Source: Bradyrhizobium sp. (GTDB lineage: Bacteria > Pseudomonadota > Alphaproteobacteria > Rhizobiales > Xanthobacteraceae). From it: 64,000 nt of DNA. Below the pieces are notes generated by a model. It did no database searches and was not told the origin of the DNA. It saw only the letters and a list, made by a program, of their open reading frames with translations. Of the stretch, positions 2,125-16,718 are shown piece after piece. The stretch is taken from contig NZ_JAURXB010000072.1 in NCBI RefSeq assembly GCF_030654605.1, positions 78,492 to 142,491 of the forward strand, written 5' to 3'. Position 1 is the stretch's first letter; every line of letters begins with the position of its first letter. The translations under genes and the position numbers were made by a program.

Positions 2125-3096
2125 ATGCCCTCATTGACAGAATGGAAAGTGCCGCCAGCGAACCAGCCGCGCCCCGGCGACTACAGCTTCGATCTCGATC
2201 GCGCGCTTGCGGCGGTGGTCGGCCTGCATTCGATCATCCCGACCGACGCCTTCAGCGCGGACACCCTGGGCACCGAGCGCGCCGGCAATGGCGTGTTGAT
2301 CGACGACGGACTGGTGCTGACCATCGGCTATCTGATCACCGAGGCCGAAACAGTGTGGCTGCATCTGGGCGACGGTCGCGTGGTGGAGGGCCATGCGCTC
2401 GGCTTCGATTTCGAAACCGGCTTTGGCCTGGTGCAGGCGCTCGGCCGCATCGACCTCGATCCGCTGCCGCTCGGCTCCTCGGCGGCCGCAGCGGTCGGCG
2501 ACCGCGTCGTGGTCGGCGGCGCCGGCGGACGCACGCGATCGGTCGCCAGCCACATCGTGGCCAAGCAGGAGTTTGCCGGATACTGGGAATATCTGCTGGA
2601 CGAAGCCATCTTCAGCTACCCCGCGCATCCCAACTGGGGCGGCACCGCGCTGATCTCGACCCGCGGCGAGCTGATCGGCATCGGCTCGCTGCAGCTCGAG
2701 CGCGAACGCGACGGCCGGGCCGAGCATGTCAACATGATCGTGCCGATCGATCTGCTCAAGCCGGTGCTCGACGACATCAGGAAATTCGGCCGCGTCAACA
2801 AGCCGTCGCGGCCCTGGCTCGGGATGTACACCCACGAGATCGAAAACAGGGTCGTGGTGGTCGGCATCGCCGGAAGAGGACCAGCGGCGCGCGCCGAGCT
2901 CAAGGCCGGCGACGTCATCCTCGCGGTCAGGGGCGAAAAGATCACGAGTCAGATCGGTTTCTACCGGAAGCTCTGGTCGCTCGGCGCCGCCGGCGTCGAC
3001 GTGCCGCTGACCGTCTACCATGAGGGCGTCACCTTCGACGTGGTGCTGACCTCGACCGATCGCGCCAAACTCCTGAAGGCGCCGCGGCTGCACTGA
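2125..3096 (+). CDS. HtrA-like trypsin-fold + PDZ protein lacking the catalytic triad
   Basis: 323 aa, with AGGAGA just upstream of the ATG. Residues about 45-215 follow the HtrA/DegP trypsin fold and 225-310 form a PDZ domain (RPWLGM ... AELKAGDVILAV). Aligning by motif, the catalytic His (normally LTNNHVV) is Tyr69 in VLTIGYLI, the Asp (DxxTDLA) is Gly99 in DFETGFG, and the Ser (GNSGG) is Trp171 in PNWGG. All three positions are therefore lost, so this is most likely a non-proteolytic pseudoprotease that binds peptides through PDZ. No signal peptide is evident, which is also unusual for HtrA proteins. The next gene starts 17 bp downstream and is probably co-transcribed. Confidence 0.75.
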   Translation: MPSLTEWKVPPANQPRPGDYSFDLDRALAAVVGLHSIIPTDAFSADTLGTERAGNGVLIDDGLVLTIGYLITEAETVWLHLGDGRVVEGHALGFDFETGFGLVQALGRIDLDPLPLGSSAAAAVGDRVVVGGAGGRTRSVASHIVAKQEFAGYWEYLLDEAIFSYPAHPNWGGTALISTRGELIGIGSLQLERERDGRAEHVNMIVPIDLLKPVLDDIRKFGRVNKPSRPWLGMYTHEIENRVVVVGIAGRGPAARAELKAGDVILAVRGEKITSQIGFYRKLWSLGAAGVDVPLTVYHEGVTFDVVLTSTDRAKLLKAPRLH

Positions 3097-14329: not shown

Positions 14330-15421
14330 TCACTCCGGCATTGGGCCGATATAGGCCGAACTCGGCCGGATCAGCCGGCCGCCGCGCTGCTGTTCGCGGG
14401 CGTGCGCGGTCCAGCCGGCGGCACGGGCTACCGCGAATACAGGCGTAAAGGCCTGGCGCGGGATTTTCAGCGCGTCGAGCAGGATCGCGGTGAAGAACTC
14501 CACATTGGTGTCGAGCGGCCGGTCCGGGTTCTTCCGCCGCAGCGCCGCGCGGATATAGGCCTCGACCTCGCCCGCGAATGGCAGGTCGGTGCCGCCGCCG
14601 GCGAGCCGCTCGATCGCGCCCTTCAGCACGTCGGCGCGAGGATCGCGCACCCGGTAGATACGATGGCCAAAACCCATCAGCCGTTCGCCGCGCGCCAGCG
14701 CGGCGTCGACCCATGGCTTGATGCGCTCGCTCGAGCCGATCGCATCCAGCATTTCCAGCACCGGCTCCGGGGCGCCACCATGCAGCGGTCCGGTCAGCGC
14801 GCAATATCCCGCGGTGACGGCCGCGAACAGATCGGCCTGGGTCGAGGCCACCACCCGCGTGGTGAAGGTCGATGCATTCATGCCGTGATCGCACACCGTG
14901 ACGAAATAGGCGTCGAGTGCGGCCACCTCGCGCGCATCGGGTTTGCGGCCCAGCATCATCGACAACGTATCGGCGGCGTGGCTGACATCGGGATCGGGTG
15001 CGATGGGGTCGCCGCCTTGGCTCTGCTGCACCAGCGCGCCGGCGATCACCGGCAACGCGCCGACGATGGTGGCCTCATGCGGAAGCCCGTTTTCCGCGCG
15101 CAATCCGGCGATGGCGGCGCGGACACCATCGACGATCGACAGGCCGCGGGTAATGCCGAGCAGGTCCGGCAGCCTGGCGAAGGCGCGTTGCCGGGCCGCG
15201 CCCAGGCTGGCGCGCACGGTGGCCTCGGCAACCGGCTGGCCGGTTCCGCCGCTCCACAGCCGCGCGGTCACCCCCTCGAATCCGGTTTGGCGCACGAGGT
15301 CGCCGACGCGTTCGCCGGCGATGATCAGTTCGCCGCGCTCGCCATCGACATGACTGAGCACGGTTTCGGCGGCGGGAATGCCATCCAGCCCGATCGGGCT
15401 CCTGGATATCTGCAGGTTCAT
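14330..15421 (-). CDS. Citrate synthase family protein with Glu at the catalytic Asp position
   Basis: 363 aa, AAAGGAGA ribosome site. Two-domain citrate/2-methylcitrate synthase fold: VCDHGMNASTF (substrate His179), GPLHGG (His214) and GFGHRIY (His253). The third catalytic residue, Asp in the usual N(L/V)DFY, is Glu308 in NVEFF. The family condenses acetyl-CoA or propionyl-CoA with oxaloacetate, or runs related Claisen chemistry. The Asp-to-Glu change could lower or alter activity. It is divergent from a second homologue that carries a DNA-binding domain; the 73-bp gap holds dyad sequences. The TCA-cycle citrate synthase is presumably elsewhere, so this pair is accessory. Confidence 0.8.
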   Translation of the reverse strand: MNLQISRSPIGLDGIPAAETVLSHVDGERGELIIAGERVGDLVRQTGFEGVTARLWSGGTGQPVAEATVRASLGAARQRAFARLPDLLGITRGLSIVDGVRAAIAGLRAENGLPHEATIVGALPVIAGALVQQSQGGDPIAPDPDVSHAADTLSMMLGRKPDAREVAALDAYFVTVCDHGMNASTFTTRVVASTQADLFAAVTAGYCALTGPLHGGAPEPVLEMLDAIGSSERIKPWVDAALARGERLMGFGHRIYRVRDPRADVLKGAIERLAGGGTDLPFAGEVEAYIRAALRRKNPDRPLDTNVEFFTAILLDALKIPRQAFTPVFAVARAAGWTAHAREQQRGGRLIRPSSAYIGPMPE

Positions 15422-15463
15422 GGGTCGGTCTCCTTTGAAGTCTCAAAGGTCGGCTCTCTCGAC

Positions 15464-15493
15464 AGATTGATCAATCTTGATTATGTAAATCAA
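15464..15493. promoter_or_regulatory. Candidate operator in the divergent citrate-synthase promoter region
   Basis: A perfect 14-bp palindrome AGATTGATCAATCT (15464-15477) abuts a second dyad TTGATT-ATGTA-AATCAA (15477-15493) ending one base before the ATG of the HTH-citrate-synthase gene. Both share the half-site TTGAT/ATCAA. The position between two divergent starts, one encoding a protein with its own DNA-binding domain, suggests autoregulation. No Shine-Dalgarno precedes that ATG. Confidence 0.5.
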
Positions 15494-15494
15494 T

Positions 15495-16718
15495 ATGAAA
15501 AAATCCGCTGCCCTGTATTTGTCTGCCCGCGAGGCCTCGGCCGAGCTCGCGATCTCGCCCGCCACGCTCTACGCCTATGTCAGCCGCGGCTTGATCCGCT
15601 CGGAGCCGTCGTCGGATTCGCGCAGCCACCGCTACCGGGCGGAGGACGTCCGCGGGCTGAAGGAACGGCGGGCGCCGTCGCCGGAGCCGCGCGGCATGAA
15701 AAGTTTCGACGCCGATTTGCCGGTGATGGATTCGTCGATTTCGACCATCACCGAGGACGGTCCGATCTATCGCGGCGTCAACTGCATCGATCTCGCCGAA
15801 ACCGACACGCTCGAACATGCCGCGACGCTGCTGTGGGACGTCACCGGCGTCGATCCGTTTGCCTCCGATAATTGTCCGCACGTGTCGGATGAAATGCGCG
15901 CCGTCGCCGACGCCGCGCGTCATGCCGCACCGATCGATCGTACCATTGCCGTGCTGGCGCTGGCCGCCAGCGCCGATCCGCGGGCCTATACCCGCGCCGC
16001 CGACGGCCGCGCCATGGTGGGCGGCCGCATCCTTCGGCTGGTGATCGCGACGATGCTGAACCGCCCGTCGTCGGCGGCGCCGCTTCATCTCAAGATCGCC
16101 AAGGCATGGGCGCCGGACAACAAGCACGCCGCCGACCTGATCCGCCGGGCGCTGGTGCTGCTGGCGGACCACGAACTGAACGCCTCGGCCTTTACCGTGC
16201 GCTGCGCGGCATCGACCGGGCTCAATCTCTACGATGCCATGATTGCCGGCCTGGTGGCGCTCAAAGGCCCGAGACATGGCGGCGCCGGGGTGCTGGCGGC
16301 GCAGCTCGTCAAGACGCTGGTCGACGGCGATGTGGCCCCTGTCATCCGCGAGCGCGTGGCGCTGGGCGAGCGCTTTGCGGGTTTCGGCCACGGCGTCTAC
16401 AAGCACGGCGATCCGCGCGCGCATGCCTTGCTGGAAGCGCTGACGCGCGCGGGAGCGGCGCCAAAACTCACAAAAGAAATTCCGGAGCGAATCGCCGAAG
16501 CCACCGGCGAATTCGTCAATATCGACTATGCGCTGGCGGTGCTGGTGCATACGCTGGGCCTGCCACCCGGCAACGAGCTGGTGCTGTTTGCGATGGCGCG
16601 CACCGTCGGCTGGATCGCGCATGCCAGCGAACAATTACGCCATGGCGGGCTGATCCGCCCCCGCGCGCGCTATATCGGCCCGGCACCGGGCCGCAGCCCG
16701 GCCGCCGGCAGGTCATGA
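15495..16718 (+). CDS. Fusion of MerR-like helix-turn-helix and citrate synthase domain
   Basis: 407 aa. Residues 8-55 (YLSAREASAELAISPATLYAYVSRGLI ... HRYRAEDV) are a MerR/excisionase-type winged helix; residues 75-395 are a complete citrate synthase domain with HELNASAF, GPRHGG (His261), GFGHGVY (His299) and catalytic Asp344 in NIDYA. It may be an enzyme that reports its substrate to DNA, a metabolite-sensing regulator, or a bifunctional protein. No ribosome-binding site is visible, so translation may be leaderless. It overlaps tail-to-tail with the dedA gene by 6 bp. Confidence 0.8.
   Translation: MKKSAALYLSAREASAELAISPATLYAYVSRGLIRSEPSSDSRSHRYRAEDVRGLKERRAPSPEPRGMKSFDADLPVMDSSISTITEDGPIYRGVNCIDLAETDTLEHAATLLWDVTGVDPFASDNCPHVSDEMRAVADAARHAAPIDRTIAVLALAASADPRAYTRAADGRAMVGGRILRLVIATMLNRPSSAAPLHLKIAKAWAPDNKHAADLIRRALVLLADHELNASAFTVRCAASTGLNLYDAMIAGLVALKGPRHGGAGVLAAQLVKTLVDGDVAPVIRERVALGERFAGFGHGVYKHGDPRAHALLEALTRAGAAPKLTKEIPERIAEATGEFVNIDYALAVLVHTLGLPPGNELVLFAMARTVGWIAHASEQLRHGGLIRPRARYIGPAPGRSPAAGRS

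Follow-up and report, generated by a model that had tools for sequence, protein, structure and literature searches.

A helix-turn-helix–citrate synthase fusion in Bradyrhizobium with a conserved DNA element at its start: a probable self-regulating transcription factor

We analysed a window of Bradyrhizobium sp. DNA (the whole stretch of 64,000 nucleotides, to which all coordinates refer) in which a gene for a helix-turn-helix–citrate synthase (HTH-CS) fusion lies divergent from a second citrate synthase gene, with 73 bp between the two. The features of this locus are as follows.

14330-15421, minus strand: CitA-type citrate synthase of 363 aa (PRK12350/NF009005), the presumed regulated partner
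15430-15436, minus strand: Shine-Dalgarno sequence AAAGGAG of the partner gene, from the sequence
15459-15464, plus strand: predicted -35 hexamer TCGACA of the fusion gene (TCGACA or TCGACG in 88 of 90 sequences, 17-bp spacer)
15467-15474, no strand assigned: extra half-site completing TTGATCAA, inner part of a 14-bp palindrome (invariant in 90 distinct genus sequences)
15471-15493, plus strand: candidate operator TCAATCTTGATTATGTAAATCAA, 23 bp, conserved across lineages
15482-15487, plus strand: predicted -10 hexamer TATGTA, within the candidate operator (from 90 genus sequences)
15495-16718, plus strand: HTH-CS fusion gene, 407 aa, proposed one-component regulator (open reading frame, Pfam, tree clade)
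15516-15671, plus strand: N-terminal helix-turn-helix, residues 8-59 (Pfam, AlphaFold, Foldseek)
15714-16664, plus strand: citrate-synthase domain, residues 74-390 (Citrate_synt, PF00285)

The citrate-synthase domain was matched by PF00285 with 210.8 bits against a cutoff of 27, while the HTH_17 match at the N-terminus was sub-threshold in the same protein (22.9 bits, cutoff 27), as was MerR_1 (18.3 bits, cutoff 21.6). In most of the relatives tested the HTH match rose above threshold (28-44 bits), and MerR_1 reached 22.5-31.3 bits in four of five. An AlphaFold model of this region (pLDDT 80) gave a beta-HTH-beta-hairpin-helix fold whose top Foldseek matches were BldC, RacA, SoxR and phage Xis (E ~0.01-0.05, probability 1.00). 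Because these are its best matches, we take the domain to be of MerR/BldC type; both the relatives over the MerR_1 cutoff and the fold match point to a MerR-type winged HTH. The coiled-coil helix that typically follows the HTH in MerR proteins was not seen in the low-confidence model, where residues 60-100 are unreliable, and the predicted spacer of the fusion promoter is 17 bp, in contrast to the 19-20 bp of MerR promoters. A full-length AlphaFold model (46 close orthologues) was too poor for use (pLDDT 44).

The initial annotation had described a MerR-like HTH joined to a citrate synthase with its three catalytic residues intact, and both points were borne out by the Pfam results above and by the presence of His261, His299 and Asp344. 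The protein further keeps the residues that bind oxaloacetate, His226, Arg308, Arg369 and Arg388, and each of the seven residues is conserved in 44-47 of 47 HTH-CS proteins (the Bradyrhizobium window protein and 46 from distant genomes). In a midpoint-rooted tree built with the helix-turn-helix removed and containing some long branches, the 47 proteins formed a single clade (support 100/100) that excluded gltA/prpC and 21 partner citrate synthases. This domain make-up and intact active site were computed directly. The closest record, from a Bradyrhizobium sp. MAG, is 98% identical over the protein, and RefSeq plasmid orthologues carry the NCBI name 'citrate synthase family protein', a label that implies an enzyme and leaves out the HTH and the operator.

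An active site this well preserved could belong to a working citrate or methylcitrate synthase whose HTH represses its own promoter, that is, a bifunctional protein like PutA or BirA. The conservation of the seven residues across the family is in keeping with such a role, and the best structural relatives of the fusion are indeed citrate and methylcitrate synthases, yet alignments with most solved enzymes cover only residues ~198-402, and no NCBIfam citrate-synthase model accepts the protein, the best score falling far under its cutoff (TIGR01800, 157 vs. 421). The genome also holds two other citrate synthases, one of them adjoining the fusion, and the prp loci where relatives of the fusion occur already have a full prpC (725 bits). 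We regard a bifunctional enzyme as a possible but rather unlikely explanation.

The adjoining gene product scored 438.6 bits against PRK12350/NF009005 (cutoff 332) and belongs among the CitA-type citrate synthases, with CitA of B. subtilis and of M. tuberculosis. It was found in every same-genus genome with the fusion and was absent from the 10 that lack it. The third citrate synthase, elsewhere in the same genome (466 bits), is probably the housekeeping gene. In the partner protein Glu replaces the catalytic Asp, as it does in all 21 alignable divergent partners; we rejected the idea that this marks a dead enzyme, since both the B. subtilis and the M. tuberculosis CitA share the Glu. The citA gene of B. 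subtilis is divergent from that of the LysR-type regulator CitR, whereas the regulator proposed here has a citrate-synthase fold.

Three claims about the intergenic region had been made from the window: that it holds a perfect 14-bp palindrome and a TTGATT/AATCAA dyad, that the fusion gene has no ribosome site, and that the fusion has its own likely operator here. The palindrome, AGATTGATCAATCT, is at 15464-15477 and the dyad, TTGATT-N5-AATCAA, at 15477-15482/15488-15493, one base ahead of the fusion ATG, so that both are present. A comparison of 90 distinct intergenic sequences from the genus showed where the constraint falls: positions 15467-15483 are 99-100% conserved and 15486-15493 nearly as much, save 15487 at 83%, with spacer bases 15484 and 15485 variable and the outer palindrome bases 15464-15466 at 84, 68 and 82%. 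The window contains eight perfect 14-bp palindromes, so that one of them by itself carries little weight, and with the outer three bases of this one varying we ruled it out as the operator. Judged by conservation, the conserved unit is instead TCAATnTTGAT-N7-ATCAA. What stands of the operator claim is thus a conserved 23-bp site at 15471-15493, and not the palindrome as its unit. The extra half-site of TTGATCAA also occurs in some distant loci, e.g., L187, L191 and L195. A third perfect dyad, CCTTTGA-AGTC-TCAAAGG at 15432-15449, overlaps the ribosome site of the partner gene; it is not conserved in relatives and was ruled out as a conserved site.

The predicted promoter of the fusion gene, a consensus guess, follows the pattern TCGACA-N17-TAnnTA in the genus; in 86 of the 90 sequences a 7-bp gap separates its -10 from the ATG. 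A Shine-Dalgarno-like site precedes the partner gene in 90 of 90 distinct genus sequences and the fusion ATG in 0 of 90, in agreement with the missing ribosome site noted earlier. From the close -10 and the lack of a Shine-Dalgarno sequence we predict a leaderless fusion mRNA, which would account for that absence. Since in Bradyrhizobium the conserved block includes the predicted -10 and abuts the start codon, it might be a mere promoter or leaderless-start element that has no specific protein partner. However, the conserved TCAA, TTGA and ATCAA fall outside the hexamer consensus, the motif in other lineages is mostly 20-80 bp upstream of the fusion start, and ahead of other genes it occurs at no more than chance level; we give a promoter-only role very little credence.

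Conservation of the dyads beside orthologues, proposed as a check in the initial annotation, extended well beyond the genus. In 46 distant loci, with orthologues ~40% identical, the core TCAATnTTGA was present as one copy in 40, compared with an expected 0.0019 per locus, and the full TCAATnTTGA-N8-ATCAA was present in 36 (expected 0.0005), on the same strand throughout. The chance rates were taken from the rest of the same loci. Because these loci share ancestry, and may include horizontal transfer, the count of 40 of 46 does not translate into a simple probability; gene starts were picked by script. Of the six loci lacking an exact core, two have a single mismatch and another carries the motif in rearranged form. 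A Deinococcus homologue is also preceded by the motif.

The element is also closely tied to the fusion gene genome-wide. Searching 398 genomes of the order for the exact motif, we found 102 sites, of which 78 precede a fusion gene by 2-62 bp on the same strand and 24 lie elsewhere; the 306 genomes of the order without the fusion gene contain 16 exact sites in all. In the 5.66-Mb genome that the window comes from, 15471-15493 is the sole exact match, and we rejected a wider regulon there, the weaker matches resembling coding background. With almost no extra genomic sites, the proposed regulator looks local and single-site. A different regulator could in principle bind the element, leaving some other function to the fusion HTH. 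The half-sites TTGAT/ATCAA look like FNR boxes, and FixK-type regulators are common in Bradyrhizobium, but the spacing, TCAA-N2-TTGA-N9-TCAA, does not fit TTGA-N6-TCAA, and we rejected the identity of the element as an FNR/FixK box. Exact sites almost limited to the fusion gene, and a motif that accompanies this gene across phyla and partners, likewise make binding by a different regulator, such as one of FNR/FixK type, very improbable.

These partners change between lineages. Many Alphaproteobacteria have a CitA-type citrate synthase as the divergent neighbour; elsewhere this neighbour is a family III CoA-transferase, prpB followed by prpC, acnD (1782 bits), DUF2332, or a 2-hydroxyacid dehydrogenase clustered with a tripartite tricarboxylate transporter protein; in Deinococcus it is a pyruvate carboxyltransferase. 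In one prp-linked set prpB is divergent in 22 of 24 loci and the motif is present in all 24. On this comparison, the motif tracks the regulator and not the partner.

We consider it probable that the fusion is a one-component regulator that binds TCAATnTTGAT-N7-ATCAA and regulates both its own gene and the divergent one, with the citrate-synthase domain as sensor. Its DNA-binding, self-regulating role is strongly supported by the comparative evidence. Metabolite sensing can reasonably be inferred from the intact active site and the partner genes, with the caveat that an ordinary enzyme would show an intact active site too. In the proposed mechanism, the MerR/BldC-type HTH would bind a site that overlaps the fusion gene's own -10 and sits between the divergent genes, which would allow control of both. 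With the predicted -10 of the fusion promoter lying inside the element, self-repression would be the simplest case. The citrate-synthase domain would dimerise, and its ligand would be oxaloacetate, an acyl-CoA or a product resembling citrate; the open/closed movement typical of the fold would then alter DNA affinity. In Bradyrhizobium the regulator would act on the neighbouring CitA-type citrate synthase gene; elsewhere, relatives sharing the operator are found beside prpB-prpC, acnD, CoA-transferases or 2-hydroxyacid dehydrogenases.

The partners also bear on the ligand. Among known PrpR proteins, the signal is either 2-methylcitrate or propionyl-CoA (PMC9765439). The partners whose function is known mostly act on acyl-CoA, 2-hydroxy or tricarboxylic acids. 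Together with the PrpR signals, this makes the citrate-synthase domain a probable sensor for a substrate or product of such chemistry. More broadly, we lean towards a widespread unnamed family in which a citrate-synthase-fold sensor (for 2-methylcitrate, citrate-like acids or acyl-CoA plus oxaloacetate) would have retained a single, almost invariant operator from Alpha-, Beta- and other Proteobacteria to Deinococcus, even as the genes under its control were exchanged.

PutA, BirA, NadR, ROK repressors and MocR are all enzyme-fold regulators; to our knowledge none is built on a citrate-synthase fold. Like the PutA- and BirA-type autoregulators, the fusion is a single polypeptide with both a predicted DNA-binding domain and an enzyme domain, and the control region of its gene contains a conserved site. 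Our literature search found no description of an HTH-citrate-synthase regulator. Suvorova et al. reportedly treated propionate regulators in Proteobacteria in J Bacteriol in 2012, and that work could contain the HTH-CS family. In one clade HTH-CS takes the position of prpR, divergent from prpB-prpC, although the fusion has none of the AAA+, GntR or Fe-S regulator domains of the PrpR types (sigma-54/Fis, GntR and the M. tuberculosis Fe-S type), the Pfam scan giving HTH_17/MerR and Citrate_synt only, and the family is also found with non-prp partners. Known methylcitrate regulators belong to other families (PMC9765439, PMC3223726, PMC6765138). Judging from gene order and motif, the HTH-CS gene beside prpB probably encodes a methylcitrate-cycle regulator that has gone unrecognised. 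No prpB over cutoff was found in our Bradyrhizobium genome, and the prp link therefore comes from relatives only. Divergence from prpB, with the same motif, was seen in L187, L191, L192, L258-L265 and L267-L275.

If this regulator reading is true, many 'citrate synthase' annotations would be transcription factors and metabolic models would be misled by them, and the citrate-synthase fold would join the enzyme folds that serve as gene-regulatory sensors. It would also give the methylcitrate (propionate) pathway a regulator in those bacteria that have the fusion beside prpB, and it would offer a biosensor candidate, its operator being short, nearly fixed and defined to the base.

We inspected 12 of the extra exact sites in other genomes; none encodes the fusion or the partner, and beyond L243, L240 and L241 they appear random. 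The L243 genome has the fusion gene, and its second exact motif (~position 3002), which may mark an extra target, has an MmgE/PrpD-family gene 135 bp away and precedes an ABC transporter by 387 bp. In L240 and L241, two same-genus genomes, the motif at position 2989 (motif strand) lies ~160 bp before a hemN-like gene; one of these two genomes has the fusion gene elsewhere, with a degenerate motif (L150). In L266, from a distant genome of the same phylum, the fusion is much closer to that of Bradyrhizobium (55-66% identical over two pieces); an apparent frameshift splits the gene, and the motif is retained.
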